Of a stretch of 60,544 nt of DNA, positions 25,259-42,013 are shown piece by piece. Position numbers and translations under genes: made by a program. Under the pieces are notes generated by a model. It searched no databases, had not been told where the DNA came from, and was given only the letters and a program-made list of their open reading frames with translations. This stretch comes from a candidate division WOR-3 bacterium (GTDB lineage Bacteria; Hydrothermota; Tepidihabitantia; Tepidihabitantales; Tepidihabitantaceae): NCBI GenBank assembly GCA_039801365.1, contig JBDRUN010000005.1:1-60544 (forward strand), written 5' to 3'. The stretch's first letter is position 1; the number at the start of each line of letters is the position of its first letter.

Positions 25259-26101
25259 CTAGTAGTCCGGGGGCAGGGTGAGTAGTTCCTGGTAGCTGAA
25301 CACCGGACCATCGCGGCAGACGTACTTGGGGCCAATGTTGCACCGACCGCACTTGCCGATGCCGCACTTCATCCGGTTCTCAAGGGACAGAAACACCTGT
25401 TCCGGCCGGAATCCGAGCGCAGCCAGCACCGGATGAGTAAACTTGAGCATTATCGGCGGTCCACACACAAGCGCAATGGCGTTCTCGGCTGAAGGTGCGA
25501 CCTGTTTGAGGACGTTGGGTACGAGCCCCTCGGTCTTGGGCCAAGTGTCGTTGCCAAGTCTGTCCACGCAGAGGTGAAGTGAGATGTCAGGGCTCTTTTC
25601 CCAGTTTCTAATTTCGTCCTTGTAGAGGAGTTCGCCAGCAGTCCGTGCGCCGTATATGCAGGTAATCTTGCCGTAGCTGGGACGGATTTCGGGCCGGAGC
25701 AGATGGGCGATAGTCGAACGCAGGGTGGTGAAGGAGAAGCCACCGGATACGATAACAAGGTCTTTGCCCTTGGCTATGTCCAGCGGGTAGGAGTTGCCGA
25801 GCGGACCACGCATGCCGATTATCGCACCAGGTTCGAGCTCATGTAAGGCAGTTGTGACTGAGCCGACACGTTTGACCGTGTAACGGACCACCGGCTCATG
25901 CGGAGCCGAGGCAATGCCGAAAGGCGCCTCGCCAACGCCCGGTATCGAGAGAAATGCAAACTGGCCGGGCGTGTAGACAAATCCAGTTCGGTCTGATTCT
26001 TGGCAGAATGAGAGGTCGAATGTCTTGAGGTCTCGGGCTTCATTCTCGACTGTGACCTTCTCGACCCTCATCGGCATTGGCAAGTACGGATTTGCCGTCA
26101 T
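25259..26101 (-). CDS. FAD/NAD(P)-binding oxidoreductase, FlxA/AsrB/HydG-like, 280 aa
   Basis: A ferredoxin-reductase-type flavoprotein. The FAD domain (about residues 5-105) has YTPGQFAFLSIPG and FGIASAPHEPVV, and the nucleotide domain follows. The C-terminus carries the four-Cys [2Fe-2S] motif typical of AsrB, HydG and PyrK (KCGIGKCGRCNIG ... YVCRDGP). In the FlxABCD module the equivalent subunit oxidises NADH. The nucleotide-binding loop reads VSGGFSFTTLRS instead of the usual GGxGxAPL(R), an unusual change that could alter NAD(P) preference. It is the last of four overlapping or abutting genes in the minus-strand operon and starts next to the stop of the upstream gene. Confidence 0.85.
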   Translation of the reverse strand: MTANPYLPMPMRVEKVTVENEARDLKTFDLSFCQESDRTGFVYTPGQFAFLSIPGVGEAPFGIASAPHEPVVRYTVKRVGSVTTALHELEPGAIIGMRGPLGNSYPLDIAKGKDLVIVSGGFSFTTLRSTIAHLLRPEIRPSYGKITCIYGARTAGELLYKDEIRNWEKSPDISLHLCVDRLGNDTWPKTEGLVPNVLKQVAPSAENAIALVCGPPIMLKFTHPVLAALGFRPEQVFLSLENRMKCGIGKCGRCNIGPKYVCRDGPVFSYQELLTLPPDY

Positions 26102-27115
26102 CTATTCCTCCGGGAGCGCCTGAACAAGTGCGGTCACGGTCTCGCGGATATCAATTGCCGATGGACACTCAATAATGCAGCGGCCGCAACCGACGCAGGA
26201 AACCTTGCCGACCATATCAACCGTGTAGGAGAACTTGTCCATCACCCGGTTGCGGTACCTGGAGCGGGGCGTGACGCGTGGATTGTGACCTGAGGCGTGC
26301 CGGGAATAAAGGCAGAACTGGCATGAGTCCCAGACTCGAATGCGCGCAGTCTGGCCTCTGCGCGTCTCGTCAGTGACGTCAAAGCAGTGGCAGGTTGGGC
26401 ACAGGAACGTACACGCGCCGCAGTTGACGCAGGGCAGGCACAGGGTTTCCCAGGTGGGATGCTCAAAGCTGCGGTCCAGCTTCTTCTTGAGTGTGGCAGT
26501 GTCAATGCGCAATGTTATCGCGGCCGCCGCCTTTTCGGCGAGTTTCCTCTTGGTTGCGATATCGGCTGGCGAGGCTTCGGGCAGGTCCTTCACCAGTGTC
26601 TCACCCTTCCCGGTCACCGGCTCGGCCAGGTAGCGTCCGTCAAGGTCGGTGACAAGAAGGTCAGTACCCCTGGTGCCAGTCGGACTACCGCCAACTGCAA
26701 GACAGAAACATGTTGCGGCTGGTTCGTTGCAGGCCAGGCTGATGACTGTGGTATGGCTGCGCCGGGCTTGGACGTACGGGTCAGCCGGGCTGTTGCCAGA
26801 AAAGAATTTTTCAAGGAATGCCAGTCCGGCGGCATCGCATGGACGGACTCCGAACCAGACCTGTTCGGTCGGCGGCTTGGTACTAGCGTCGGTGCTGTTG
26901 CCAGCAAAGCGTAGTAGTGGTTCGGTTTGCGGGAACAGGGCGGCCTTGGCTGGTTGTTTCGTGTTGACTCGGGTCAGGTCAATTTCCCGATAAGAATGAA
27001 CCCGGCGGAATTCGGTCCAGTTTCTCACACGGGCCGGTGCGTACAGGGCGGCGGTACCGGCCAGCCGGTCAAGCAGGGCGTCGAGTTGCTGCTTTGTCGC
27101 CGCACGCGGGTTCAC
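26102..27115 (-). CDS. 4Fe-4S dicluster protein, AsrA/HydB (FlxB)-like, 337 aa
   Basis: It matches the sulfhydrogenase beta / anaerobic sulfite reductase A type: an N-terminal domain with FGVRPCDAAGLAFLEKFF (about residue 90) and Cys/Pro-rich strands, then two [4Fe-4S] sites near the C-terminus, CVNCGACTFLCPTCHCFD (about 230) and CVGCGRCIIECPSAIDI (about 310), with Cys pairs between them. Such subunits relay electrons between the NAD(P)H-oxidising subunit and the rest of the complex. The start ATG overlaps the stop of the upstream FrhB-like gene by 4 bases, and the downstream flavoprotein begins directly at its stop. It is probably part of an Flx-type module feeding the Hdr proteins encoded divergently. 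Confidence 0.85.
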   Translation of the reverse strand: MNPRAATKQQLDALLDRLAGTAALYAPARVRNWTEFRRVHSYREIDLTRVNTKQPAKAALFPQTEPLLRFAGNSTDASTKPPTEQVWFGVRPCDAAGLAFLEKFFSGNSPADPYVQARRSHTTVISLACNEPAATCFCLAVGGSPTGTRGTDLLVTDLDGRYLAEPVTGKGETLVKDLPEASPADIATKRKLAEKAAAAITLRIDTATLKKKLDRSFEHPTWETLCLPCVNCGACTFLCPTCHCFDVTDETRRGQTARIRVWDSCQFCLYSRHASGHNPRVTPRSRYRNRVMDKFSYTVDMVGKVSCVGCGRCIIECPSAIDIRETVTALVQALPEE

Positions 27116-27957
27116 CGGATGAACTCCTGGGGGTCTTCGGGTCTGAACGCAGCGAGCGCTGGCGGCTCGGCAGGGTCCATTCCCGCAGTTGCGCCGAAGC
27201 GTTCCTTGACGATGCGGGCGACCTTGCAGTTGAATCGCATCAGGTCAATTCCGACTGGGCATGCACGGGCACATGCTCCGCATTCGACGCAGCGGCCGGC
27301 CATGTGCAGTGCGCGCACGATGTGGAAGATGATATTGTCAGAGAGACCGGTGGTTCGGCCTACCCATTGCGGCATGTTGTTGTCTACAAAACAGACCGGG
27401 CAATAGCAGTTGGGGCAGACCTGACGGCAGGCATAGCAGCGGATGCAGCGTGCAAGGTCAGAAGTGAGCTCCTGCCAGCGCTCGTCCGGTGACAGCGATT
27501 CAAACTGAACCAGCCTGTCTTGTGCGTCTTTTCGGCCCGAGGTCTCGGCAACAGGTTCACCGACCATCTCGTCAAACACGACCGGGTTATGCTGAACACA
27601 GGTTGTGCAGGAGTCGCTCAGGTTTTCATCTTCGATTACGCCTGGACACCCGACACCGAGGATATGGATGTTCTTGCGCTCGAGCTGTCCTTCCTTCAGC
27701 AGGACCAGAAGCGAGCGGGAGTCGCAGCCCTTAGCCACAACTGCGATCCGGCCTAGGTGTCTGACCCTGAGTAAGTAGTTTGCAAGGTTCGGGCCACATG
27801 TTTCATCGAATATGAGTATGTCCGAGTTATCGGGACTTGTGATGAACGCGGGCTTGGCCGGACCGGTGATGCTCCTGCGATAGCCTACAACTACCGCTAC
27901 TTCCTTGGCGACCAGCAGTTCGCGCGAGCGCCGGCGGAGTGCTTCGGTGCGAGTCAT
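27112..27957 (-). CDS. FrhB/FdhB-like 4Fe-4S protein (FlxC-like), 281 aa
   Basis: The N-terminal 165 residues resemble the FrhB/FdhB fold (AKGCDSRSLLVLLKEGQL, ILGVGCPGVI). A dicluster follows with CIRCYACRQVCPNCYCPVC (about residues 180-198) and CVECGACARACPVGIDLMRF (about 232-251). It transfers electrons within an Hdr/Flx-type complex. Its closest relative in the window is the protein at 36020-37156, which has the same layout with a longer N-terminus. Both ends overlap neighbouring genes by ATGA, indicating tight translational coupling. Confidence 0.82.
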   Translation of the reverse strand: MTRTEALRRRSRELLVAKEVAVVVGYRRSITGPAKPAFITSPDNSDILIFDETCGPNLANYLLRVRHLGRIAVVAKGCDSRSLLVLLKEGQLERKNIHILGVGCPGVIEDENLSDSCTTCVQHNPVVFDEMVGEPVAETSGRKDAQDRLVQFESLSPDERWQELTSDLARCIRCYACRQVCPNCYCPVCFVDNNMPQWVGRTTGLSDNIIFHIVRALHMAGRCVECGACARACPVGIDLMRFNCKVARIVKERFGATAGMDPAEPPALAAFRPEDPQEFIR

Positions 27958-28397
27958 ATCGGTTCTTTCACTAGTTTCCGATTCGGGCCGAGTGCCCGTA
28001 CCTTTTCGGTCACCTCACGCACAACTGCGGCAAATCGCTCGCCCTCGGCAGCCGAAACCCAGGAAAAACTTACCCGACCCGGGTCAATCCCGACGAACTC
28101 AAGCAGGTCGTGAAGAACCGCGAAGCGACGCCGGGCCACGTAGTTACCGGTAAGATAATGACAGTCCCCGGGATGGCAACCGGATACCAGAACGCCGTCG
28201 GCACCGGACTGCAATGCTTTGAGGATGAAGAAAGGGTCCACCCGGCCTGAGCAGGGCACGCGGATGACACGAATAGACGGAGGGTATTGGATGCGGGAAA
28301 TGCCGGCCAGGTCTGCGCCGGCGTAGGAACACCAGTTGCAGAGGAACGTCACAATCCGCGGCTGGAAGTCAGAAGGTGGTAAGGGTTCGTCAGGCAT
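27954..28397 (-). CDS. mvhD: MvhD/FlxD-like [2Fe-2S] subunit, 147 aa
   Basis: The MvhD family links hydrogenase or Flx modules to HdrA. Visible are FLCNWCSYAGADLAGISRIQ (about residues 18-37), CSGRVDPFFILKAL and GCHPGDCHYLTGNYVARRR (about 75-93), carrying the conserved cysteines of the family. The frame is open to 28466, but ATG at 28397 (MPDEPLPPSDFQPRIV) is chosen because the promoter TATAAT lies at 28424-28419. It is the first gene of the minus-strand Flx-like operon, overlaps the next gene by 4 bases, and has a paralogue at 35587. Confidence 0.88.
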   Translation of the reverse strand: MPDEPLPPSDFQPRIVTFLCNWCSYAGADLAGISRIQYPPSIRVIRVPCSGRVDPFFILKALQSGADGVLVSGCHPGDCHYLTGNYVARRRFAVLHDLLEFVGIDPGRVSFSWVSAAEGERFAAVVREVTEKVRALGPNRKLVKEPI

Positions 28398-28418
28398 AAG
28401 GCGAGTGTAAGAATGAGG

Positions 28419-28446
28419 ATTATAGCCCAAGTGTGGCAGATGTCCA
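28419..28446 (-). promoter_or_regulatory. Promoter of the Flx-like operon
   Basis: Minus strand TGGACA (28446-28441), 16-base spacer, TATAAT (28424-28419), about 22 bases before the ATG at 28397. Confidence 0.5.
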
Positions 28447-28836
28447 CCACTGCAGCCGGCGGGCATGCATGTTGATAGTCGGACGTCACGTCATTGCCAA
28501 GTCATTTTGCCTTGCTGAAACCCCGAGCCAACTGCAGTGCGTGGGGAACCTGATGGCATCGGAGTTCAACAAGCCGTCGAATACGATGGGAAGTTAACCA
28601 TGACCCGCATCTGCTTTTCTTGGTAGAGCCCATCATGGGAGCTGGCTACGACCGTAGCTGTCTTGGCAGGGAGGTCGTGCTGGGCGGTGCTGGAGCCGGG
28701 GCGTTGGTACAGTAGGCAAACCTAACCCAGTGGCTGTCTTGTGGAGGGACCGGAAACAGAACAGAGCAGCGAACAGACAGGTAGTTGGCGGTTTCGGCAC
28801 GCCTTGCAGCGAACGATGAGTGGTATGCTGAATAGT
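28447..28836. other. Divergent intergenic region of the Hdr/Flx locus
   Basis: About 400 bases between the two divergent electron-transfer operons, with no gene seen. A dyad GCTACG-AC-CGTAGC at 28645-28658 near the middle could bind a regulator of both operons. Confidence 0.45.
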
Positions 28837-28876: not shown

Positions 28877-29272
28877 ATGTCCAATACACATCCTGATGAG
28901 GAACTGGTGCGCCAGATTGAGCTTCTGAGCGGACAGAAGGTCACGGACTGTTATCAATGCGGTGCCTGCACCAGTGGGTGTCCGGTAGCAGAGATGATGG
29001 ATGTGCCACCGTCCAAGGCGATGAGACTTCTGCAGTTGAACAGGGCAGGTGAGCTGCTGGCGTCCAGCGGCATCTGGATGTGTGCCAGCTGTCTGGTGTG
29101 CGGCACGCGGTGTCCACGTGGAGTGGACTATGCGAGAGTGGCAGAGGCGTGTCGGGCGATACTGTTGCGGGCTAGAAGTTCCAAGCTGGACCCGGATATG
29201 GTATCAGCGGAAGAATGCGAGGATATACCGCAGCAGGCATTTATTGCCGCATTCCGCAAGTTTGCCGGATAG
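28877..29272 (+). CDS. hdrC: Heterodisulfide reductase subunit C, 131 aa
   Basis: A classical small HdrC with two intact [4Fe-4S] motifs: CYQCGACTSGCPVAEMM (about residues 25-41) and WMCASCLVCGTRCPRGVDY (about 65-83), both CX2CX2CX3CP. HdrC shuttles electrons between HdrA and HdrB in the usual HdrABC complex. Here no HdrB gene accompanies it. It heads the plus-strand operon, with a promoter just upstream and no clear ribosome-binding site. It differs from the second, tandem HdrC-like protein at 37160, in which one Cys of each second motif is replaced. Confidence 0.92.
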   Translation: MSNTHPDEELVRQIELLSGQKVTDCYQCGACTSGCPVAEMMDVPPSKAMRLLQLNRAGELLASSGIWMCASCLVCGTRCPRGVDYARVAEACRAILLRARSSKLDPDMVSAEECEDIPQQAFIAAFRKFAG

Positions 29273-29277
29273 CCATG

Positions 29278-29350
29278 GGAAGCAGTCGAAGAGGGAGTGG
29301 CCGGAAAGGGAGTAGTCAGAACTATTTTTCACTCGCTACTTCCTGCTTCC
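29278..29350. repeat. Inverted repeat between hdrC and hdrA
   Basis: GGAAGCAG (29278-29285) pairs with CTGCTTCC (29343-29350), with an inner GAGTAG/CTACTTC pairing. The string CGGATAGCCATG occurs at both flanks of the gap (at the hdrC stop and at the hdrA start), a short direct repeat that may record an insertion or duplication. Confidence 0.4.
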
Positions 29351-29378
29351 AGTTTCGAGAGGGAGCGGACGGATAGCC

Positions 29379-31094
29379 ATGAAAAGACCAAGGGTGGGGG
29401 TTTTTGTCTGCCACTGCGGCATCAATATCGCCGGCGTGGTGAAAGTCTCGGAGCTGGTAGAGCGGGCAAAGAAGATGCCAGGGGTGGTAGTAGCCCTGGA
29501 TTACCAGTATTGCTGCTCAGACCCGGGGCAGAATCTTATTCGCGAGACAATCCTGAAGCAGAATTTGAACCGGGTGGTGGTGGCATGTTGTTCACCTACT
29601 CTGCATGAGAAGACGTTCCGCAAGGCATGCGCCGCCGCTGGTCTGAATCCGTACCTGTGCGAAATAGCAAATATCCGGGAGCATTGCTCCTGGGTAACCA
29701 AGGATAGAGACCAGGCTACGGATAAGGCCGAGGGTATCGTGGCTATGACCGTAGCCCGAGCATTATGGGACGAGTCTTTGGTGCCGGTGGGAGTGCCGGT
29801 TACAAGAAGAGCTCTGGTGGTGGGCGCAGGTATTGCCGGAATTCAGGCTGCCTTGGACATTGCCAATGCTGGTTACGAAGTAGTACTGGTTGAGCGGCAG
29901 CCACGCATCGGCGGGCATATCAGTGCTCTGACGCGGACCTTTCCTTACCTTGAGCGGGCGGAGTCGGTGTTTGCGCCCAAGCTAGCTGAGTGTGCTTCTC
30001 ATCCGCACATTAGACTGCTTACTTCTGCTGAAGTGGCTGAGGTGTCGGGCAATGTGGGCGATTTCAGAGTGAAGATACAGCGTAGAGCACAGACAGAGAC
30101 GGAGCAGGAAATAGAAGAGACAGTGGGGGCGATTGTTTTTGCCACCGGTTATGAGCTTTTCGATATTGCTAAGCTGGCACCGTATGGGGCAGGGCAGGTT
30201 GCGGATTTGGTTGATAGCCTTGAGTTTGAGAGACTTTTGGCCGTAGCAATGACCACTGGAGAGTTGAGAAGGCCATCAGATGGCGGGGTGCCAAAGCGAG
30301 TGGTGTTTGTGCAGTGTGCAGGTTCCCGGGATCAGGAGCACGGTGTGCCTTATTGCTCCAAGGTGTGTTGTATGTACACGGCGAAGAACGCCCTGGCATA
30401 CAGGGAACTGGTACCGGATGGAGAGGCGATAGTCTGCTATATTGACGTGCGGACTCCGGGCAAGGGGTTTGAGGAGTTCTACCAGCGGGTAACAGATGCC
30501 GGTGTGAAATACTATCGAGGCAAGGTGGCCAGGGTTTTCCGCAACGGTGACAAGGTCAAGGTTCTGACTGCAGACACTCTGGCAGCAGCAAAACTGGAGT
30601 TAGATGCCGACCTGGTGGTTCTGGCTACAGCCATGGTTGCAGACCCGTATGGGGTGGAACTTGCCCGCAAGTTGAAAGTGCAGGTAGGCGCTTCCGGGTT
30701 TCTGAGTGAGGCACATCCCAAGTTGAGACCGGTAGAAACGTTAGCCGGCGGCTTCTTTCTTGCCGGTACCTGTCAAGGCCCCAAAGACGTATTCGAAACT
30801 GTGGTGCAGGCTTCTGCAGCCGCAGCCAAGGTGCTGGCTCTTTTCAGTCAGGACAAGCTGTATCACGAACCGACTATCGCTCAGGTGGACGAAGCGGTTT
30901 GCGTGGGATGCGGATATTGTGAGAAGACGTGTGCCTATTCTGCGGTGAAGGTGGACGAACGACGACGAATTGCAGTGGTGAACCCGGCCTTGTGCGAAGG
31001 ATGCGGTGCGTGTGCGGTGGCGTGTCCTTCCGGCGCAATGACGCACCGCAACTTTTCCAAGCGTAGTATTGTGGAAATGGCAGAACAGGTGTAG
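29379..31094 (+). CDS. hdrA: HdrA-like flavoprotein, 571 aa
   Basis: A single HdrA unit. The N-terminal Cys domain has VFVCHCGINIAGVV (about residues 8-21), CCSDPGQNLI and VVACCSPTLH. The FAD-binding Rossmann motif is VVGAGIAGIQAALD (about 146-159). The middle has CAGSRDQEHGVPYCSKVCC, and two C-terminal [4Fe-4S] sites are CVGCGYCEKTCAY (about 507) and CEGCGACAVACPSG (about 538). The ferredoxin insertion that follows the FAD motif in methanogen HdrA (CTxC type) is absent. HdrA is the flavin subunit where electron bifurcation occurs. The next gene starts 3 bases after its stop. Confidence 0.92.
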   Translation: MKRPRVGVFVCHCGINIAGVVKVSELVERAKKMPGVVVALDYQYCCSDPGQNLIRETILKQNLNRVVVACCSPTLHEKTFRKACAAAGLNPYLCEIANIREHCSWVTKDRDQATDKAEGIVAMTVARALWDESLVPVGVPVTRRALVVGAGIAGIQAALDIANAGYEVVLVERQPRIGGHISALTRTFPYLERAESVFAPKLAECASHPHIRLLTSAEVAEVSGNVGDFRVKIQRRAQTETEQEIEETVGAIVFATGYELFDIAKLAPYGAGQVADLVDSLEFERLLAVAMTTGELRRPSDGGVPKRVVFVQCAGSRDQEHGVPYCSKVCCMYTAKNALAYRELVPDGEAIVCYIDVRTPGKGFEEFYQRVTDAGVKYYRGKVARVFRNGDKVKVLTADTLAAAKLELDADLVVLATAMVADPYGVELARKLKVQVGASGFLSEAHPKLRPVETLAGGFFLAGTCQGPKDVFETVVQASAAAAKVLALFSQDKLYHEPTIAQVDEAVCVGCGYCEKTCAYSAVKVDERRRIAVVNPALCEGCGACAVACPSGAMTHRNFSKRSIVEMAEQV

Positions 31095-31097
31095 CAA

Positions 31098-34000
31098 ATG
31101 AGTTCTGATATCAGGCCACAGGTCGACAAGCCGGCGAGCCCGGAGAAACCGGTTGGTGCGGTGCTGGTGGTAGGTTCTGGTATCGGCGGTATTCAGGCGT
31201 CACTGGAGCTGGCTGATGCCGGGTTCAAGGTGTATCTTCTGGATGAAGCGACTGCCATCGGCGGTGTGATGGCTGGTCTGGATAAGACTTTTCCCACCAA
31301 TGACTGCTCGATGTGCATTCTGGCGCCAAAGCTTGTGAGCACGGGAAGACATCAGAATATTCAGCTTCTGAATTACTCGGAGCTTGTTGCGCTGGAGGGT
31401 GAGCCAGGCCGGTTTCGTGCGCGCATCAGACACCGGCCCCGTTACGTGTTACTGGACAAATGTACCGGCTGTATGGATTGCACCAAGGTGTGTCCGGTGC
31501 ACGTGGTGGATGAGTACAATCAGAAGCTATCTGAGCGCCGCGCCACCTACAAGCTTTACCCGCAGGCGATTCCGAACGCGGTGGCGATAGAAAAGAATGA
31601 GAAACGGGCACCGTGTCGGCTTGCCTGTCCCGCAGGGGTGAACGCCCAGGGGTATGTGGCACTCATTGCCGAACGCAAGTTCAAGGAAGCTTACGACCTG
31701 GTGCGGGAACGGCTGCCGTTTCCAGGTATCTGCGGACGGGTGTGTCATCATCCGTGCGAAACAGAGTGCAACCGCAAGGAGTTTGAAGGCCCGGTGGCTA
31801 TCAGGACGCTTAAGCGGTTTGTTGCCGACCGGGCAATGGCAGAGAGGTCTGAAAGGTCGGCCAGACCAGACAAACCCGAGGAGCGCGCGGAGAGGGTGGC
31901 GGTTGTCGGCGCAGGGCCGGCTGGCTTGACCTGCGCTTTAGACCTGCGGAACAAGGGGTACAAGGTCACAGTGTTTGAAGCGGCAGACAAGCCGGGCGGA
32001 ATGATGCGGTACGGGATTCCAGCGTACCGTCTGCCGCGGGAGATTATTGATGCCGAGATTGCTGATATTCTGGATACAGGCGTGGAGCTCAGAACTAATT
32101 CACCCATACGAACTCGGCAGGAACTGGACGGACTGCTGAGTGATGGATACAAAGCGGTATTTCTGAGCCTGGGTTGTCAGAAAAGCCGAACTCTCAAGAT
32201 ACCGGGGATGGAGCTGGAAGGAGTTCATCTGGGCGTAGAGTATCTGCGGGCGGCGAGCGAAGGCCGGCCGTTGCCTACCGGGAAGAAAGTGGTAGTAATT
32301 GGTGGCGGTAATGTGGCGGTGGATGTGGCGATGACGGCGCGGCGGTGCGGAGCCGAAGATGTGACAATGGTATGTCTGGAGTGCCGCGAAGAGATGCCGG
32401 CATTTGAGTATGAGATTGAGGAAGCTCTGGCTGAGGGTATCAAGATAAACCCTTCTTGGGGACCGCAGGCAATTCTGGGCAGGGAGGGTAAGGTTACAGG
32501 CCTGGAAACAGTGGAGTGCACGCGCGTATTTGATGATGCAGGCAGGTTCAATCCGGAGTTCAATACCTGCAACACCGGGTTTGTGGCAGCGGATACAGTG
32601 ATACTGGCCATCGGTCAGGCTGTTGATGCGGATGGGTTCGACGGGTTTGAAAAGGGAGCAGGCGGTGTCTTCAAGGCTGACAAACTGACGCTTGCTACCA
32701 ATGTGCCGGGAGTGTTTGCCGGCGGAGATATGGTATCCGGTCCCGCATCGGTGATTGAAGCCGTGGCTGCCGGGCACGAAGCGGCGATTTCCATTGACCG
32801 GTATATCAGAGGAGAAGACTTGTCCGCGGGGAGGGAGAAACCAAGGTACGAGTCAGCCTCGGCAGAGGAATCTGCGGCCGTGCGGGCAAAAATTCTTCGC
32901 CAGGAGAGGGCCAAGGAACCGGTGATTCCTATTGACAGGCGTCAGGACTTTGTCCAGGAGATTGCACTGGGCTTTGATGAGGAAACCGCGGTGGCTGAGG
33001 CAAAGCGTTGTCTTGCCTGCGGAGTCTGTTCGGAATGTATGCAGTGTGTAGCCGCGTGTGAAGCCAAGGCAATTGACCATACGATGAAGCCGACGGAAAG
33101 CGAGCTTGAAGTTGGAGCTGTGGTGCTTGCCACCGGTTTCAAGGAATACAAGCCGACGGGTGAATTCGGTTACGGCTACGGCCGTTATCCGAACGTTGTC
33201 ACCAGCCTTGAGTTCGAGCGTATTTTGTCTGCGTCCGGGCCTTACGAGGGGCACGTGAAACGACCCTCGGACGGGAAACAACCCAGGAAGATAGCTTGGA
33301 TTCAGTGCGTGGGTTCGCGCAATCAGGAACACTACTACTGTTCTTCAGTCTGCTGTATGTTTGCGACCAAGGAAGCAGTGATTGCCCGGGAACACTGTGG
33401 CGGTAACTTGGAATGTCATATCTACTTCATGGATATGCGCTGTTTCGGCAAGGATTTCGAGAAGTATTACGAGCGGGCACATCAGGAGTACGGAGTGCAG
33501 TTCCGGCGGTGCAAAGTGAGCGCGGTGGAAAGAAAGGGCTCAAAGGGTGGCGAGAACGAGAACCTGCTCATCAGCTACGAAGATGAGAATGGCTTATTGA
33601 AACAGGAAGAATATGATATGGTTGTGGTATCCAGCGCGCTGATGCCAAACCCTAGGTCGGTGGAACTTTGCCGGAAATTGGGGGTTAGCCTAGACGAGCA
33701 GGGCTTTGTCCGCACCGACCCGTTCCGGCCGATGATGACGGACCGGGAAGGGGTCTTTGCTTGTGGAGCGATGACCGAGCCCAAGGATATTCCCGAAACT
33801 GTTACCGAAGCGACTGGCGTAGCGGCCGCGGTAGGTTCGATGTTGGCCCGTAGCCGCAATACACTGGTCTCGGCTAGAGTTTATCCACCCCAGCGCGACG
33901 TATCAGCCGAAGAGCCGCGTATCGGAGTGTTTGTCTGCAACTGCGGTATCAATATCGGTGGCGTAGTCAAGGTAGGGAGTGTGGTTGAGTATGCCCGGAC

Positions 34001-35585
34001 TTTGCCGAATGTGGTGTATGCAGAAGAGAATCTGTTCACCTGCTCGCAAGACACCCAGCAGAAGATTCGCAAGGCAATTGAGGAATATAGACTCAACCGG
34101 GTGGTAGTAGCGTCATGCACTCCGCGGACCCATGAGCCGTTGTTCCAAGAGACACTGGCTGAGGCTGGTCTGAATCCGTATTTGTTCACAATGGCGAATA
34201 TCCGGGACCAGTGCTCCTGGGTGCATATGCAACAGCCGGAGGAAGCGACGCGAAAATCGCAGGAACTGGTAAGGATGGCAGTGGCTAATGCGCGGCTGTT
34301 GCGACCACTGGAATCTTACCCGCAGCCGATAACCCAGAGAGGACTAGTTATCGGTGGTGGGCTTGCGGGTATGACTGCGGCGCTGGCTATCGCTGAGCAG
34401 GGGTTTGAGGTATATCTGGTTGAGCGCGAGGAAAGACTGGGCGGCAAGTTGCGGCGGATGCGCTACAACGAAACCGGCGAGGATATAACTGACTTTCTTG
34501 CTCGGCTGGATAAGCAGGTGCGGGATAATCCACGCATAAAGCTTTTCACTTGGGCAGAGCTGGTGTCGGTGTCGGGTTATGTCGGGAACTACAAGACCAG
34601 AATCAAGCATCCGGGCGGCGAGACAGAGTTGGAACATGGCATATTCCTGGTAGCCACCGGTGCAGAAGAATACAAGCCCACTGAGTATCTGTACGGCAGG
34701 GATGCACGAGTGAAGACGCAGACCGAGCTGGAGGATATGGTGGCCGGGTCGAGCGATGAGTTACGTAATGCCGAATACATAGTGATGATACAGTGTGTGG
34801 GTTCGCGTGAGCCGGACCGTCCCTGGTGTTCACGCGTCTGTTGCACTGAGGCGGTGAAGAATGCGCTGCGTATCAAGCAGCTCAACCCCAAGGCTAACGT
34901 ATATATCCTCTACCGTGACATGCGCACCTATGGTTTCAAGGAGGCGCTGTATCGGGACGCACGGGCATCGGGCGTGATGTTTGTCAGGTTTGACCCGGAA
35001 AGCAAGCCGGAAGTGACGCAACAGGATGGCAACCTGCATGTCTCGGTATATGACCCGGTGCTTCAGCGCCGGTTGGGTATCAATGCCGACCTGCTTGTGC
35101 TTTCGACCGGGGTAGTACCGCCGAAGACGAATTCGGCTCTAGCGCAACTGCTCAAGGTGCCGTTGAATGAAGACGGGTTTTTCCTTGAGGCACATATGAA
35201 ACTGAGACCGGTGGATTTCACCACCCGGGGCGTGTTTATGGCCGGAATGTGCCACAGTCCGCGCCGGATTCCTGAGACAGTGGCGCAGGCGTATGCGGCT
35301 GCGGCCCGGGCGTGTACGATTCTTTCTCACAAGGAGCTTTCCACTGAGGCAGTGGTGGCGCAGGTGAATCCGCGCTGGTGCGTGGGCTGCGGTGTATGCG
35401 AGGAGACTTGTCAGTATGAGGCGGTGCGGGTGAATCCGGAGACCGGTAAGTCAGAGGTAACGGCAGTTCTATGCCAAGGCTGTGGCGCGTGCGCGGCGGC
35501 CTGCCCATCGGAAGCAATCAAGCTCAAGGGATTTGAAGCAAAGAACGTGATTTCGATGGTGGACGCGGCGTTACAGGAGGTCTGA
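31098..35585 (+). CDS. HdrA / NfnB-GltD-like / HdrA fusion, 1,495 aa
   Basis: Three flavoprotein units sit in one chain. (1) A HdrA unit starts directly with the FAD motif VVGSGIGGIQASLE (about residue 23) and a ferredoxin motif CTGCMDCTKVCPVHV (about 120). (2) Before the second cluster of that insertion, a glutamate-synthase-small-subunit/NfnB-like module enters (about 173-625): CRLACPAGV, FPGICGRVCHHPCETECNR, FAD motif VVGAGPAGLTCALD and NADPH motif VIGGGNVAVDVAMTA. The HdrA unit then resumes with CLACGVCSECMQCVAAC (about 638). (3) A second HdrA starts near 940 (VFVCNCGINIGG), has GGGLAGMTAALA (about 1085) and ends with two [4Fe-4S] sites (CVGCGVCEETC, CQGCGACAAACP). It could take electrons from NADPH into an HdrA pair. 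Confidence 0.9.
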   Translation: MSSDIRPQVDKPASPEKPVGAVLVVGSGIGGIQASLELADAGFKVYLLDEATAIGGVMAGLDKTFPTNDCSMCILAPKLVSTGRHQNIQLLNYSELVALEGEPGRFRARIRHRPRYVLLDKCTGCMDCTKVCPVHVVDEYNQKLSERRATYKLYPQAIPNAVAIEKNEKRAPCRLACPAGVNAQGYVALIAERKFKEAYDLVRERLPFPGICGRVCHHPCETECNRKEFEGPVAIRTLKRFVADRAMAERSERSARPDKPEERAERVAVVGAGPAGLTCALDLRNKGYKVTVFEAADKPGGMMRYGIPAYRLPREIIDAEIADILDTGVELRTNSPIRTRQELDGLLSDGYKAVFLSLGCQKSRTLKIPGMELEGVHLGVEYLRAASEGRPLPTGKKVVVIGGGNVAVDVAMTARRCGAEDVTMVCLECREEMPAFEYEIEEALAEGIKINPSWGPQAILGREGKVTGLETVECTRVFDDAGRFNPEFNTCNTGFVAADTVILAIGQAVDADGFDGFEKGAGGVFKADKLTLATNVPGVFAGGDMVSGPASVIEAVAAGHEAAISIDRYIRGEDLSAGREKPRYESASAEESAAVRAKILRQERAKEPVIPIDRRQDFVQEIALGFDEETAVAEAKRCLACGVCSECMQCVAACEAKAIDHTMKPTESELEVGAVVLATGFKEYKPTGEFGYGYGRYPNVVTSLEFERILSASGPYEGHVKRPSDGKQPRKIAWIQCVGSRNQEHYYCSSVCCMFATKEAVIAREHCGGNLECHIYFMDMRCFGKDFEKYYERAHQEYGVQFRRCKVSAVERKGSKGGENENLLISYEDENGLLKQEEYDMVVVSSALMPNPRSVELCRKLGVSLDEQGFVRTDPFRPMMTDREGVFACGAMTEPKDIPETVTEATGVAAAVGSMLARSRNTLVSARVYPPQRDVSAEEPRIGVFVCNCGINIGGVVKVGSVVEYARTLPNVVYAEENLFTCSQDTQQKIRKAIEEYRLNRVVVASCTPRTHEPLFQETLAEAGLNPYLFTMANIRDQCSWVHMQQPEEATRKSQELVRMAVANARLLRPLESYPQPITQRGLVIGGGLAGMTAALAIAEQGFEVYLVEREERLGGKLRRMRYNETGEDITDFLARLDKQVRDNPRIKLFTWAELVSVSGYVGNYKTRIKHPGGETELEHGIFLVATGAEEYKPTEYLYGRDARVKTQTELEDMVAGSSDELRNAEYIVMIQCVGSREPDRPWCSRVCCTEAVKNALRIKQLNPKANVYILYRDMRTYGFKEALYRDARASGVMFVRFDPESKPEVTQQDGNLHVSVYDPVLQRRLGINADLLVLSTGVVPPKTNSALAQLLKVPLNEDGFFLEAHMKLRPVDFTTRGVFMAGMCHSPRRIPETVAQAYAAAARACTILSHKELSTEAVVAQVNPRWCVGCGVCEETCQYEAVRVNPETGKSEVTAVLCQGCGACAAACPSEAIKLKGFEAKNVISMVDAALQEV

Positions 35586-35586
35586 C

Positions 35587-36018
35587 ATGTCTGATCAGTC
35601 TGACTTCGAACCAAAGATAGTAGGGTTCCTGTGCAACTGGTGTACTTATGCCGGAGCAGACCTGGCTGGCACTTCGCGCATGCAGTATCCGCCGAATATG
35701 AGGCCCATAAGGGTGATGTGTTCAGGTTCGGTTGATTCGGTGTATATCCTGCGTGCGCTCCTTGCTGGTGCAGACGGCGTTTTCCTCGGCGGCTGTCATC
35801 CGGGAGACTGTCACTATGTCTCGGGCAACTATAAAGCACGGAGACGGATGGTGCTGTTTCGGTCTATTATGCGGTCACTTGGTCTGGATGAAGACCGGGT
35901 TTGGCTACGTTGGATTTCTGCGGCCGAGGGCAGAAAGTTCGCCGATACGATGACCGAGATAACCGAGTATCTGAAGAAGAAGGGGCCGAGTCCGTTCCGC
36001 GGTCAGTGGGATGTGTAG
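35587..36018 (+). CDS. mvhD: MvhD-like [2Fe-2S] subunit, 143 aa
   Basis: The second MvhD of the locus: FLCNWCTYAGADLAGTSRMQ (about residues 15-34), CSGSVDSVYILRALLAGADG and GCHPGDCHYVSGNYKARRR (about 72-90). MvhD subunits dock electron-input modules onto HdrA. ATG at 35587 follows AGGAGGT at 5 bases. It sits between the giant HdrA fusion and the FrhB-like gene, a different order from the minus-strand copy. No MvhA/MvhG hydrogenase genes are nearby, so the donor must be something else. Confidence 0.9.
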   Translation: MSDQSDFEPKIVGFLCNWCTYAGADLAGTSRMQYPPNMRPIRVMCSGSVDSVYILRALLAGADGVFLGGCHPGDCHYVSGNYKARRRMVLFRSIMRSLGLDEDRVWLRWISAAEGRKFADTMTEITEYLKKKGPSPFRGQWDV

Positions 36019-36019
36019 C

Positions 36020-37156
36020 ATGGCGATGAATAATCATCAGAGCGGTTTTCTGAAGGTCCAGAACCAGAATCCAGAGGAGACTCTACGCCAGGTGTTCGCC
36101 GGATGGCTGCGGGAGCACAAGCTGACGGCGATTCTGGCCCCGGCGCTTTCCTCTGCTGGCAGTGCGACACTGGCACTTGTGTCCGAACCAGAAAGACTTG
36201 CGAGCGTGCTGCCCTTGCTGCCGGCGATGGCGGTGAACGCTGCTTCGGTGGTGCACGAGATTGCCGGAGGTTCAGGGGCCGGCGAGACGGTGGGACTATT
36301 GTTGCGTCCGTGCGAGTTGCGGGCGGTGGTGGAGTTGGTGAAGCTCAGGCAGATACTGACTGACAGCCTGGTACTCATTGGTATTGACTGTCCAGGCACT
36401 TACCGGGCAGCAGGTTTTCGGGAACTGCGCCGGGACGACGCAGACTTTGATAATAAACACGTCCGCAACCAGCAGGAATATGTGTCCAATGTGAACTTCC
36501 GCACCGCTTGCCAGATGTGCGAATTTGCCAAGCCTCTGACCTTTGATCTGTGTATTGGCTGGCTGGGTATGGACCCGGACAAAGAGTTGTTCCTGGAGGC
36601 TGCAACCGAGAAGGGCAAGGGGTTACTTGAGAATTTGGAATTGAGCGTGGCAGCAGAGCCTGAAACAAGAAAGCAGTATCTGACCGAGCACGCAAGAAAG
36701 CGGCAGGAGCAGACAAGGGAACGTATCGAGCAGATGGACAAGCAGATAATGGGCGTGGAAAACCTTGTCCGCTATTTTGCCGACTGCCTGAATTGCCACA
36801 ACTGCATGAAGGTATGCCCGGTGTGCTACTGTCATGAATGCTTCTTTGATTCTGATACTTTCAAGCGTGACCTGGACGAACACGTGCGGGCTTCCAGGCG
36901 CAAAGGGTTGAGCCGAATGCCCTCTGAGACGATGCTGTTCCATTTGACCAGGATGAATCATATGATGACTTCCTGCGTTGCCTGTGGGATATGCGAGGAT
37001 TCTTGCCCGGTGACTATCGGGCTGGCAACCCTATTCAAGAAGGTATCCCAGAATGCGCAGCAGGAGTTCGACTATTTGGCAGGCCGGAGTCTGGAAGAAC
37101 CGCTACCGCTGACTACGTTCCGGGAAGATGAGTTCAAGAAGGTAGGAGAAGAGTAA
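36020..37156 (+). CDS. FrhB/FdhB-like 4Fe-4S protein, about 378 aa
   Basis: The N-terminal 170 residues include LLLRPCELRAVVELVKLRQI (a FrhB/FdhB-type signature) and LIGIDCPGTY. A helical insertion at about residues 200-240 is rich in Arg, Glu and Gln. Two clusters follow: CLNCHNCMKVCPVCYCHEC (about 254-272) and CVACGICEDSCPVTIGLA (about 319-336). ATG at 36020 is preferred, because the frame from 36011 overlaps the upstream gene and has no better box; ATG at 36026 is also possible. It is a paralogue of the 281-aa subunit on the minus strand. The presumed role is electron transfer next to MvhD. Confidence 0.83.
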   Translation: MAMNNHQSGFLKVQNQNPEETLRQVFAGWLREHKLTAILAPALSSAGSATLALVSEPERLASVLPLLPAMAVNAASVVHEIAGGSGAGETVGLLLRPCELRAVVELVKLRQILTDSLVLIGIDCPGTYRAAGFRELRRDDADFDNKHVRNQQEYVSNVNFRTACQMCEFAKPLTFDLCIGWLGMDPDKELFLEAATEKGKGLLENLELSVAAEPETRKQYLTEHARKRQEQTRERIEQMDKQIMGVENLVRYFADCLNCHNCMKVCPVCYCHECFFDSDTFKRDLDEHVRASRRKGLSRMPSETMLFHLTRMNHMMTSCVACGICEDSCPVTIGLATLFKKVSQNAQQEFDYLAGRSLEEPLPLTTFREDEFKKVGEE

Positions 37157-37159
37157 GAG

Positions 37160-37942
37160 ATGAAGTCAGAAGCCAGCGGTGAAGGGCCAGCAGCCGAAGT
37201 CTCTGCTCAAACAAGGGTAGTTGAGGAACTGCTGGTCAATAACCTGGATATGGATTTCCGGGACAGGCTGGTGGCAAAGGCAGGGGATGCGGGGTTCATG
37301 CATTGCTTGGCGTGCGGTTCCTGTTCTGCTTCTTGTCCGGTGCGCAGGCTGGAGGAGAAATACAATCCTCGGCGTATCATCCGGATGGCGATAATGGGGA
37401 TGAAGGAAGAGGTGTATGCTTCTGAGTTCGTCTGGATATGTTCTTACCACTCAACCTGTCTGCGTCGGTGTCCGCAGGGTGTGAGCATCGGCGCAATCGC
37501 AGACGCCGTGGTGCGCATGGCCGAGGAAGGACGTAGGGGCCTGGTTACAGGCTCGGAACATACCACGTCCACTGGCCAGGTGGTTACGCCAGATGAATCT
37601 GGTCGTACGTTCAAGAGGAAGGTGATGAAGAACGTTCCTGAATTGGGCCGTTGCTTTGTCTGCGGTTCCTGCACCGCGGTATGTCCGGAGACATTGATGG
37701 ACCCTATGAAAGACCCTCGGGCATTTATCCGCAAGGTGAACCTTGGCCTTGCTCGTGAGGCGATGGCCGATGAGTTCAAGGACATTTGCGCCACTCATTT
37801 CCGTTGTCTTTCTCGCTGTCCGCAGGGCGTGAACATAGCGAAGATAATGAACGCCATACGGGAATTGGCAGTTGAGGACGGCTATGCATACCCAGAGACG
37901 CTTGCGGCACTCGAACGCACAGAAAAGAATGTAATGATTTGA
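37160..37942 (+). CDS. Tandem HdrC-like iron-sulfur protein, 260 aa
   Basis: Two HdrC-type units in one chain. Each begins with an intact CX2CX2CX3CP motif: CLACGSCSASCPVRRLEE (about residues 49-66) and CFVCGSCTAVCPETLMD (about 165-181). Each second motif has His in place of the second Cys: ICSYHSTCLRRCPQGV (about 93-108) and ICATHFRCLSRCPQGV (about 213-228). The clusters there may have a His ligand or be three-iron. No membrane segment is present, unlike QmoC. It follows the FrhB-like gene by 3 bases and precedes the tandem HdrA by 6, so the two duplicated subunits probably work together. Confidence 0.88.
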   Translation: MKSEASGEGPAAEVSAQTRVVEELLVNNLDMDFRDRLVAKAGDAGFMHCLACGSCSASCPVRRLEEKYNPRRIIRMAIMGMKEEVYASEFVWICSYHSTCLRRCPQGVSIGAIADAVVRMAEEGRRGLVTGSEHTTSTGQVVTPDESGRTFKRKVMKNVPELGRCFVCGSCTAVCPETLMDPMKDPRAFIRKVNLGLAREAMADEFKDICATHFRCLSRCPQGVNIAKIMNAIRELAVEDGYAYPETLAALERTEKNVMI

Positions 37943-37948
37943 ACTCAG

Positions 37949-40900
37949 ATGTTTGATTCGTTGAATCCGGGACAGAAAAGGACGGGTGCAGTTCTGGTTA
38001 TCGGCGGCGGCATCGGCGGCGTGCAGACAGCGCTGGATTTGGCAGATTCCGGTTTCCGGGTGTATTTGACTGAGCGCCTGCCGGCTATCGGCGGCGTGAT
38101 GGCGATGCTGGACAAGACCTTCCCAACGAACGACTGTTCGATGTGTATTCTGTCGCCCAAGCTGGTGGCCGCGGCCAGGCATCCCAACATCGTGCTGTTC
38201 ACCCTGACCGAGGTTCTTGGCATCGAGGGTCAACCGGGCAATTTTGCAGTGCGGCTCCTGAAGCGCGCCCGTTTTGTCAACCTGGACAAGTGTACCGGTT
38301 GCGGTGATTGTCTGGCCAAGTGTCCGGTGAAGCTGCCCAACGAGTTTGAGGGCAGGTTGTCAGAGCGACGTGCCATTTATCGGCTGTATGCGCAGGCCGT
38401 ACCCAATGCCCCTATGATAGACCGGGAGTACTGCCTGAAGCTGACTAAGGACCGCTGCGGTGCGTGTGCGAAGAATTGCAGGGCCGGAGCGATTGATTAT
38501 GCCCAGCACGACACAGAGGTAACTATTCGGGTTGGTTCGGTCGTGGTTGCTGCCGGGTCGGAAATTGCGCCGACCGCGCTGCGGCCGGAATACGGCCACG
38601 GGCGATACAAAAATGTGGTCACAAGTCTGGAGTTTGAACGCATTCTTTCAGCCTCCGGCCCTTATGGGGGCCACATTCGACGTCCGGCCGATGGCAGAGA
38701 ACCCAAGAAAATTGCCTGGCTGCAATGCGTGGGCTCGCGCGACGAGTCGGCAGAGAAAGGTTACTGCTCCGCGATGTGCTGTATGTACGCGGTCAAGGAA
38801 GCAGTTATCGCCAAGGAGCACATGGCATCAATAGAGCCGACGATCTTCTATATGGATATGCGTTCCTACGGTAAGGATTTCGATAGGTACGTGGAGCGGG
38901 CCGAGCAGCAGTACGGGGTGAGGCCAGTCCGGGCGCGAGTCCCAGAAGTCCGTGAGGACCCAAGAACCAAAGACTTGTTTGTGCGCTTTGCCGGGGACAA
39001 TGGCCAGCAGTCGGAACGATTCGATATGGTGGTTCTTTCCTGCGGGCTGGTGCCGCCGTCCCGACTCCTGGAGCTTTCCCGAAAGCTGGACATAGAGCTT
39101 GACCGTTTCGGGTTCGCTTCCGGTTCTCTGTGGGAGCCGGTGGGAACGACGCGGTCTGGTATCAGCGTAGCCGGCACATTTTCTCAGCCGATGGCGATAC
39201 CGGAGACAGTCACCGAAGCCTCGGCCTCGGCCGCAACCGCAGAAGGACTATTGGCTGATGTGCGGGGTGCACTGGTGGAAGCACAGCCTTCGCCGGTTGA
39301 ACTGGATGTCAGGGGTGAGCCACCGCGCATTGGTGCTTTTATCTGTCATTGTGGCATCAATATTGGTGGGATTGTCAATGTGCCGTCGGTGGTGGAATAT
39401 GCCAAGACCCTACCGTTTGTCGTGTATGCCGAGGAGAACCTGTATTCCTGTTCCGGCGATACTCAGGAGAAGATAAAGGAACGCATCAAGGAGCACCGGC
39501 TGAACCGCGTAGTTGTAGCATCGTGTTCTCCGCGCACGCACGAGCCGTTATTCCAGGCCACTTGCGTCGAGGCGGGCCTGAATCCGCACCTTTTCACGAT
39601 GGCAAATATTCGGGATCAGTGTTCCTGGGTGCATATGAAGGAACCGGAAAGGGCGACCGAGAAGGCGAAGGAGTTGGTTCGGATGGCCGTGGCCCGGGCG
39701 GTGCGGCTGAGTCCGTTACCGCGGGTCAAGCTTCCGGTCACCAAGTCAGCGCTGGTCGTAGGTGGTGGCATCGCCGGTATGGCTGCGGCGCTGGCAATTG
39801 CGGACGAGGGATTCGATGTGTGCCTGGTTGAAAGAGAAGCAGAACTTGGTGGTAATGCGCGGCAGATTCACAAGTCGGTTGGCGGCGAAGACGTACAGGC
39901 TGAGCTCGGGGAAATGAAGGGGCGAGTAGGCAAGCATCCGCGTATCAAGGTGCTTATTGGAGCACAGATCAAGAGTATCGAAGGTTTTGTGGGAAACTAC
40001 AAGACAACGATAGAGCTCGCCGATAAGTCTGAATTCTGCTACAGTCACGGCGTTGTGGTCGTTGCTACCGGTGCGCAGTATCGTACTCCGAGTGAGTACC
40101 GCTACGGGGAAACTCCAAACATCATCACTCAGCGAGAACTGGAAAGACAACTGGCAGTTCAGCGTACGAGTTCTTCCTCCGGACGTGTGAGGCTCTGGTC
40201 AGCTGGTAACTCTGTGGTAATGATTCAGTGCGTTGGTTCCCGCGAGCCTGGGCGTCCCTATTGTTCGCGTGTATGCTGTGCGGAAGCGGTCAAGAATGCA
40301 ATCGAGCTGAAGGAGTTGAGTCCGGATACGGATGTGTATGTCCTTTACCGCGACATCAGAACTTACGGAATGCGTGAGGAATACTATCGCCAGGCACGCG
40401 AGCTGGGTGTGGTGTTCATTCGCTATACACCAGAGAATAAACCTGAGGTCAAGCTTGTTGAGGGTAAGCCGATTGTGCTGACGTATGATCCGATCCTGGG
40501 TCGAAGGCTTGAACTCAGACCTGACTGGCTGGTACTGAGCACGGGTGTCGTGGCGCAAACCGGCTCAGAGGAACTGGCCAAGATGCTCAAGGTGCCGCTG
40601 AATGCCGACGGGTTCTTCCTTGAGGCGCATATGAAGCTGAGACCGGTAGATTTCGCGACTGAAGGCGTGTTCATGGCCGGGATGTGCCACTTCCCGAAGT
40701 TTATTGACGAATCCATTGCCCAAGCCAGGGCTGCTGCGGCCAGGGCGGCTACGGTATTGGCGCGCGAGTTTATTGAGTCTGAGGCAACGGTGGCACATGT
40801 TGACCAGACCCGTTGTACTGCCTGCCACATGTGCGAGACGCTCTGTGCGTACCGCGCCATCGAGGTTAAGACTGTGAATGAGACATTCGGCATCCAGGCC

Positions 40901-41032
40901 GCGGTAGTCAACGAGGCGCTGTGCAAAGGATGCGGCGCGTGCGTGGCCAGTTGTCGGTGCTCGGCCATAGACCTCAGGGGATTTACCAACGAGAACATCA
41001 GCCGCGAAATTGAGGCACTGCTCAACGTGTAG
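37949..41032 (+). CDS. Tandem HdrA-HdrA flavoprotein, 1,027 aa
   Basis: The first unit lacks the N-terminal Cys domain and begins with the FAD motif VIGGGIGGVQTALD (about residue 15). It then has a complete ferredoxin insertion: CTGCGDCLAKCPVKL (about 114) and CGACAKNCRAGAI (about 170). The second unit begins near 460 (AFICHCGINIGGIV) and has FAD motif VVGGGIAGMAAALA (about 604) but no insertion. It closes with two cluster motifs, CTACHMCETLCAYRAI (about 955) and CKGCGACVASCRCSAI (about 991), in which the usual Pro after the last Cys is replaced. It is similar to the outer parts of the 1,495-aa fusion, without the NfnB-like insert. Last gene of the operon. Confidence 0.9.
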   Translation: MFDSLNPGQKRTGAVLVIGGGIGGVQTALDLADSGFRVYLTERLPAIGGVMAMLDKTFPTNDCSMCILSPKLVAAARHPNIVLFTLTEVLGIEGQPGNFAVRLLKRARFVNLDKCTGCGDCLAKCPVKLPNEFEGRLSERRAIYRLYAQAVPNAPMIDREYCLKLTKDRCGACAKNCRAGAIDYAQHDTEVTIRVGSVVVAAGSEIAPTALRPEYGHGRYKNVVTSLEFERILSASGPYGGHIRRPADGREPKKIAWLQCVGSRDESAEKGYCSAMCCMYAVKEAVIAKEHMASIEPTIFYMDMRSYGKDFDRYVERAEQQYGVRPVRARVPEVREDPRTKDLFVRFAGDNGQQSERFDMVVLSCGLVPPSRLLELSRKLDIELDRFGFASGSLWEPVGTTRSGISVAGTFSQPMAIPETVTEASASAATAEGLLADVRGALVEAQPSPVELDVRGEPPRIGAFICHCGINIGGIVNVPSVVEYAKTLPFVVYAEENLYSCSGDTQEKIKERIKEHRLNRVVVASCSPRTHEPLFQATCVEAGLNPHLFTMANIRDQCSWVHMKEPERATEKAKELVRMAVARAVRLSPLPRVKLPVTKSALVVGGGIAGMAAALAIADEGFDVCLVEREAELGGNARQIHKSVGGEDVQAELGEMKGRVGKHPRIKVLIGAQIKSIEGFVGNYKTTIELADKSEFCYSHGVVVVATGAQYRTPSEYRYGETPNIITQRELERQLAVQRTSSSSGRVRLWSAGNSVVMIQCVGSREPGRPYCSRVCCAEAVKNAIELKELSPDTDVYVLYRDIRTYGMREEYYRQARELGVVFIRYTPENKPEVKLVEGKPIVLTYDPILGRRLELRPDWLVLSTGVVAQTGSEELAKMLKVPLNADGFFLEAHMKLRPVDFATEGVFMAGMCHFPKFIDESIAQARAAAARAATVLAREFIESEATVAHVDQTRCTACHMCETLCAYRAIEVKTVNETFGIQAAVVNEALCKGCGACVASCRCSAIDLRGFTNENISREIEALLNV

Positions 41033-41098: not shown

Positions 41099-41104
41099 AT
41101 GGAA

Positions 41105-42013
41105 ATGAGAACCATCAGATTGAGAACTAACATCGACAAGGTCGTGATGCTTTCGGTGCAGGGTAAGGTGAGCTATCCTTCGGGAAGCCGTGGCCACGGA
41201 GTGGATGCGGACGGCAGGCCGTTTCTATTGCCGTCCATTGGCGGCATTTCCTATAACGTGAAGGTCGGAGACCCGGCGTTCGGCTGGGCCGGAGACCACA
41301 TCGAGCCGGGGGTTTCCTGCATTGCGGACTGGGAGAAGCGGATGGACCATCCGAATACCTCCTTCCACTTCTACTCATGCATCGGAAACGAATGCCGGGT
41401 GGTGACCGGTGAAGCCAAGGGCGCAAAGGGGGTCGTTACCGGACATCATGGTGGAGCCGAGCATGTACTAGTTGACTTTGCTGACGCGGTTCTTGAGAAG
41501 CTTCAGATGGAGGATAAGTTCCTTGTGCGCGGATATGGTCAGGGGTTCAAACTTCTTGACTACCCGGAAGTGCAGGTGACGAACCTTGACCCCGGGCTGT
41601 TCTTCAAGATGGGCGTGCGCGATACTGGCGGCAAGCTTGAGGTCCGGGTCGCCGCGGTCGTGCCCGGATACCTGATGGGTTCGGGTGTGGGTTCACGTTC
41701 GATGGGTACCGGCGACTACGATGTGATGACCACCGACCGCAAGGAAATCGCACGGCTCGGTCTGGACCGGCTGCGGTTCGGCGACATCGTCGCAATTACC
41801 GACCATGACAACGTTTACGGCCGATCTTGGCGCAAGGGGGCGGTTACGATTGGCGTCGTGGTTCACTCAGACTGCGTCGTGGCCGGACATGGGCCTGGTG
41901 TCACGACGGTTCTGTCGGCAGCAAGGCCGCTGATTGCTCCGAAGCTAGACCCGCACGCGAATATTGCCGAGATTCTGAAAATCGGCCGGTTCCGGCCAAA
42001 GCGCGGAAAGTAA
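41105..42013 (+). CDS. DUF4438 family protein, 302 aa
   Basis: The frame can begin at ATG 41099, but that codon touches TATAAT. ATG 41105 (MRTIRLRTNIDKVV) sits where transcription should start and is preferred, as a leaderless start. Family-like segments are GKVSYPSGSRGHGVDADG, HFYSCIGNECRVVTG, KGVVTGHHGGAEHV and GSRSMGTGDYDVMT. Members are cytoplasmic and of unknown biochemistry. A protease gene follows 20 bases after its stop and is probably co-transcribed. Confidence 0.82.
   Translation: MRTIRLRTNIDKVVMLSVQGKVSYPSGSRGHGVDADGRPFLLPSIGGISYNVKVGDPAFGWAGDHIEPGVSCIADWEKRMDHPNTSFHFYSCIGNECRVVTGEAKGAKGVVTGHHGGAEHVLVDFADAVLEKLQMEDKFLVRGYGQGFKLLDYPEVQVTNLDPGLFFKMGVRDTGGKLEVRVAAVVPGYLMGSGVGSRSMGTGDYDVMTTDRKEIARLGLDRLRFGDIVAITDHDNVYGRSWRKGAVTIGVVVHSDCVVAGHGPGVTTVLSAARPLIAPKLDPHANIAEILKIGRFRPKRGK

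Follow-up and report, generated by a model that had tools for sequence, protein, structure and literature searches.

A tandem HdrC with a conserved histidine at a predicted cluster-ligand position in each half, encoded between an AsrA-like gene and an HdrA gene

The window (the whole stretch of DNA that was analysed, 60,544 nucleotides) carries a set of Hdr genes in which the ordinary single HdrC is accompanied by a second, duplicated one, referred to here as tandem HdrC (tHdrC). The genes of the set and the cluster motifs of the two HdrC proteins are located as follows.

25259..28466, minus strand: divergent set, consisting of an FlxA-like gene (25259-26101), an FlxB-like gene (26102-27115), a 4Fe-4S dicluster protein (27112-27957) and a second MvhD (27954-28466)
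28877..29272, plus strand: HdrC1, canonical and single-domain, CASCLVCGTRCP; it has no HdrB neighbour in this genome
29379..31094, plus strand: HdrA, 571 aa
31098..35585, plus strand: HdrA with an inserted GltD (NAD(P)H-type) domain, 1495 aa
35587..36018, plus strand: MvhD/FlpD (PF02662)
36011..37156, plus strand: AsrA-like 4Fe-4S dicluster protein, directly upstream of tHdrC
37160..37942, plus strand: tHdrC, 260 aa, composed of two HdrC domains; matched by TIGR03290 and PF13183 in two stretches
37238..37546, plus strand: N-terminal HdrC half of tHdrC (AlphaFold2 pLDDT 89.5; Foldseek TM 0.78 to 8rvu_c)
37304..37339, plus strand: N half, motif 1, CLACGSCSASCP, canonical, Cys49-59; all Cys invariant in 16 orthologues
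37439..37474, plus strand: N half, motif 2, CSYHSTCLRRCP, residues 94-104; His97 codon at 37448-37450
37586..37894, plus strand: C-terminal HdrC half of tHdrC, 34% identical to the N half
37652..37687, plus strand: C half, motif 1, CFVCGSCTAVCP, canonical, residues 165-175
37787..37822, plus strand: C half, motif 2, CATHFRCLSRCP, residues 210-220; His213 codon at 37796-37798
37949..41032, plus strand: HdrA2-type double HdrA, 1027 aa (NF040770), directly downstream of tHdrC

The product of 31098-35585 is an HdrA-GltD-HdrA fusion, near Moorella HdrA in size and domain order and with a predicted NAD(P)H site.

In both halves of tHdrC the second cluster motif reads CxxHxxCxxxCP, as against CxxCxxCxxxCP in HdrC1 of the same gene set; the initial annotation, which described the same Cys-to-His change in both second motifs next to an all-Cys HdrC1, was exact on this point. 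Profile search matches two stretches of tHdrC to TIGR03290 (overall E 4e-33), and a solved HdrC is matched with a profile at E 5e-24. The AlphaFold2 model of the N half superposes in Foldseek on the solved HdrC 8rvu_c with an rmsd of 2.1 Å, and kinship with HdrC is thus found in the sequence of each half and in the fold of the N half, while the full-length AlphaFold2 model (pLDDT 74) is too poor to give the arrangement of the halves. The pair of CxxCxxCxxxCP motifs that marks each HdrC domain is, on the other hand, found in no copy of tHdrC, and the TIGR03290 score of 114.4 bits lies below the curated equivalog cut-off of 160 bits. Because of these two departures tHdrC is set apart from the HdrC proper of CoB-CoM heterodisulfide reductase and is, as judged from its sequence, a variant of HdrC. 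A scan of genome contigs with the tHdrC sequence as single query returned one distant, uninformative locus. Selenocysteine or another form of recoding at the motifs was considered and rejected: the TGA and TAA codons seen close to some copies precede the start and do not fall within the motifs.

The tHdrC His aligns with a Cys of the solved HdrC, and the cluster concerned can be named by comparison with EtfD, an HdrC/HdrB-like protein whose cryo-EM structure shows cluster D3 bound by Cys311, Cys412, Cys415 and Cys418, cluster D4 bound by Cys301, Cys304, Cys307 and Cys422, and a distance of ~8 Å between D3 and cluster D2 of the HdrB-like CCG domain (PMC13083937). Expressed as motif positions, the ligands of D3 are Cys IV of motif 1 and Cys I-III of motif 2. 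By homology the altered residue corresponds to EtfD Cys415, which would make the His cluster the one facing HdrB, with a predicted ligand set of three Cys and one His. tHdrC thus has a conserved His at a cluster-ligand position, the position being given by homology and the conservation by alignment. The initial annotation had named a 3Cys:1His cluster or a three-iron cluster, and these are the right candidates, given a predicted ligand position that comes from homology to a solved relative.

That the change is conserved follows from a search for tHdrC in 120 relatives and then in 147 genomes of the home phylum, where the full tandem is confined to the home family and present in 17 of its 18 genomes (one with two copies, another with the gene divided between two contigs). 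In the 16 aligned orthologues, which are 61-70% identical to the window protein, His97, His213 and all 14 cluster Cys are kept. Two genomes of one other phylum (G320 and G395, among 17 genomes of that phylum covered) also have tHdrC, at 41-46% identity, with His again in the second motifs of the N and C halves (CSSHYTC/CSTHYRC and CSAHFTC/CSTHYRC); no tandem was found in the 1 and 4 genomes of two further phyla, and the searches as a whole spanned the home phylum, the one other phylum and a few hundred genomes from other lineages. In sum His occupies both sites in 20 of 20 copies from 19 genomes of two phyla. The alignment of homologues called for by the initial annotation therefore gave an invariant His and none of the random residues that it had named as refutation, and its claim of a conserved change rather than a random loss is borne out; sequencing error and random loss of Cys are rejected, the same His recurring in every copy. 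One home-family genome, G006, is without tandem HdrC; its assembly is 92% complete, and loss of the gene and missing sequence are both possible.

Within the genomes searched the His is a property of the tandem only. A scan of 390 genomes for the codon pattern CxxHxxC..RCP[QE] gave tandem HdrCs as its only real matches, with two sites per gene; two spurious matches proved to be a frame interrupted by a stop (G002) and a spurious ORF (G294), and the reversed control pattern gave 0 matches. Cys stands at the His position in all canonical HdrC-type double motifs from relatives (130 distinct stretches, some of them not HdrC) and in every single-domain HdrC collected. Among 37 aligned halves 17 of 112 alignment columns are invariant, the His column included, over a tree length of ~10.6 changes per column, and the His codons are mixed at both sites (CAT:CAC 10:8 and 11:8), so the sites change silently while the protein sequence stays unchanged. 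Since both His are kept in every copy and in two bacterial phyla, the unusual metal site very probably has a function and is not a product of decay.

A tree of HdrC halves and canonical HdrCs, built with the trait column masked, places the N halves (support 99/88) and the C halves (99/99) each in one group covering both phyla, and makes the two groups sisters among the canonical HdrCs with moderate support (86/84; in a first tree that lacked the second phylum, 68/68). Independent origin of the two His is disfavoured by this grouping. A single Cys-to-His change probably preceded the tandem duplication, in which case the two His are not independent events; the simplest history, proposed with moderate confidence, would comprise one Cys-to-His change, one duplication and then presence in two phyla through descent or transfer. 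The halves of the window protein both still have His at only 34% identity. The argument of the initial annotation that the same His in both halves is itself evidence of conservation holds in part: the residue is conserved, but the halves probably inherited one change.

The neighbours of tHdrC are fixed. The AsrA-like gene lies immediately 5' of tHdrC at every tandem locus with a mapped upstream gene, and in both phyla tHdrC has this gene on one side and an HdrA gene on the other, the order being HdrA-GltD, MvhD, AsrA-like, tHdrC, HdrA2, MvhD, dicluster protein, FlxB-like in G320 and MvhD, AsrA-like, tHdrC, HdrA-GltD, MvhD, dicluster protein, FlxB-like, FlxA-like in G395. The Flx-like set, divergent in the window, is co-directional with and near tHdrC in the other phylum. 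HdrB (identified by BLAST) is absent from beside the tandem, a loss that the initial annotation does not mention. Among loci with enough flank it adjoins 57 of 68 single canonical HdrCs versus none of 18 tandems (Fisher p 2e-11, for sequences that are related and not independent), and the adjacent HdrB of an HdrBC module is accordingly found with none of these tandems. In the related genome G398 a single Cys-HdrC and HdrB come after the same series of HdrA-GltD, MvhD and AsrA-like genes, so the tandem occupies the place of HdrC-HdrB. The 11 of 68 single HdrCs that have no adjacent HdrB (two HdrC1 copies, in the window and in G002, and nine of one clade) all keep the Cys, which makes HdrB loss and the His separate things. 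This genome does encode an HdrB on another contig, C83 (L145:1418-2326), beside another HdrA.

Two further observations concern single HdrCs. The HdrC1 region of the window (28877-29379) has no HdrB, whereas the relatives L043 and L044 carry HdrB between HdrC1 and HdrA. The nine-member clade (L049, L078, L079, L081, L086, L088-L090 and L102), single Cys-HdrCs with no adjacent HdrB, has the motif CxxCYxCYAxCP and lies beside Flx-like genes at mapped loci, an Hdr output with no obvious HdrB.

Each half of tHdrC has the paired-cluster layout of the HdrC of methanogen HdrABC (5odc, 8rvu, 7bkb), whose fold is also that of the N half as modelled; tHdrC differs from this HdrC in having two domains per chain, His for the second Cys of motif 2 and no adjacent HdrB. 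EtfD/HdrD-type proteins have the same dicluster ligand pattern, in EtfD as part of a linear electron wire, but the HdrC-like site of EtfD has only Cys ligands and comes joined to CCG domains and a membrane anchor (PMC13083937). The HdrA part of the gene set is already known, as GltD-inserted and double HdrAs occur in Moorella (PMC9430772), in ANME HdrA9-11 (PMC9012536) and as type III HdrA in a survey of HdrA types (PMC12054007). The complexes described there resemble the present set in their GltD/NfnB-like insert, double HdrA chains, MvhD and several HdrA per cluster, and the partners mentioned are HdrBC or HdrD, as against a tandem HdrC with His motifs here. A literature search that covered few subscription papers found no description of an HdrC with CxxHxxCxxxCP or of a tandem HdrC.

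These features suggest that tHdrC could be an electron-relay subunit of an HdrA-based electron-bifurcation (or -confurcation) complex, in which it has taken the place of the usual HdrC and HdrB. In each half the side turned to HdrA in an ordinary HdrC would carry an all-Cys [4Fe-4S] cluster, and the side turned to HdrB a 3Cys:1His cluster; without HdrB the two His-ligated clusters would come to lie at the junction of the halves, where the His would tune electron exchange, and tHdrC would wire the upstream HdrA-GltD/MvhD/AsrA-like module to the downstream HdrA2 module and the Flx-like set. This model, in which a pair of 3Cys:1His [4Fe-4S] clusters sits in the middle of tHdrC and the protein links two HdrA flavin modules, has in our estimate about an even chance of being correct. 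It is weakened by the 11 single Cys-HdrCs that also lack HdrB, as loss of HdrB alone requires no His, by the HdrB of C83, which could join the complex, and by the fact that gene order does not prove a complex. More tentative, and in our judgement somewhat doubtful, is the fuller proposal of a single complex whose two flavin-based bifurcation modules are connected through back-to-back 3Cys:1His [4Fe-4S] clusters of the duplicated HdrC; were such wiring real, bifurcation could be coupled or run in two steps with no HdrB site of the heterodisulfide type.

Few protein types are known to have His-ligated [4Fe-4S] clusters, and a His site in the widespread HdrC relay, present twice per chain and with no adjacent HdrB, would provide a natural test of His ligation in a bifurcating complex. 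Coupled bifurcating flavins of the kind proposed from HdrA clusters have, to our knowledge, not yet been seen. If true, the bridge would show how cells could couple two bifurcating flavins. Such coupling has been proposed from archaeal HdrA gene clusters (PMC12054007).

The predicted ligand set of the tHdrC relay cluster is like that of 3Cys:1His [4Fe-4S] clusters in hydrogenases (the distal cluster of [NiFe]-hydrogenases and FS4C of the [FeFe]-hydrogenase CaI), which differ in protein and motifs; tHdrC has two such putative sites in one chain. In CaI the His controls electron exchange with the partner (PMC9019909), and changing it to Cys at the distal cluster moves the potential by a modest ~65 mV, yet electron transfer and the reaction with ferredoxin are strongly affected (PMC9019909, PMC12645427). 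His ligation therefore need not imply a large change in potential, and a His bound to iron in tHdrC might tune exchange or shift the potential.

If the His were not bound to iron, each half might instead carry an SdhB-like [3Fe-4S] cluster at the altered site, its high potential pulling electrons to an acceptor. SdhB and FrdB rank next after HdrC in sequence and fold comparisons and have a related dicluster fold; we take them to have a non-Cys residue at the same second-cluster position as the tHdrC His, and the [3Fe-4S] centre S3 of succinate dehydrogenase subunit B presumably has no Cys at the matching position. They differ from tHdrC in that the residue is not His, the cluster is [3Fe-4S] and an extra [2Fe-2S] domain is present. 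We nevertheless think a three-iron cluster unlikely, as His is a competent ligand and its strict retention over ~10.6 changes per column exceeds what mere absence of Cys would need. It is likewise improbable that tHdrC is an ordinary HdrC relay serving the HdrB encoded elsewhere (C83), with a His that is neutral or mildly tuning: an HdrB does exist elsewhere in the genome, and some relatives have one beside HdrC1 in their gene sets, but HdrB never adjoins the tandem, the relatives' HdrB of this gene set follows HdrC1, and strict conservation of the His speaks against neutrality. A degenerate site, with one cluster lost per half and the His structural or serving another metal, has no direct support and is very improbable, for the seven Cys that remain in each half show no variation, and one of them, motif-1 Cys IV, is a ligand of the cluster in EtfD that is homologous to the altered one.

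Beyond the Hdr genes, a DUF4438 protein (PF14505, PF20999) is encoded directly after the set at 41099-42013, and a subtilase-family protein (PF00082), 906 aa in length and with an extended C-terminal region, at 42033-44753.
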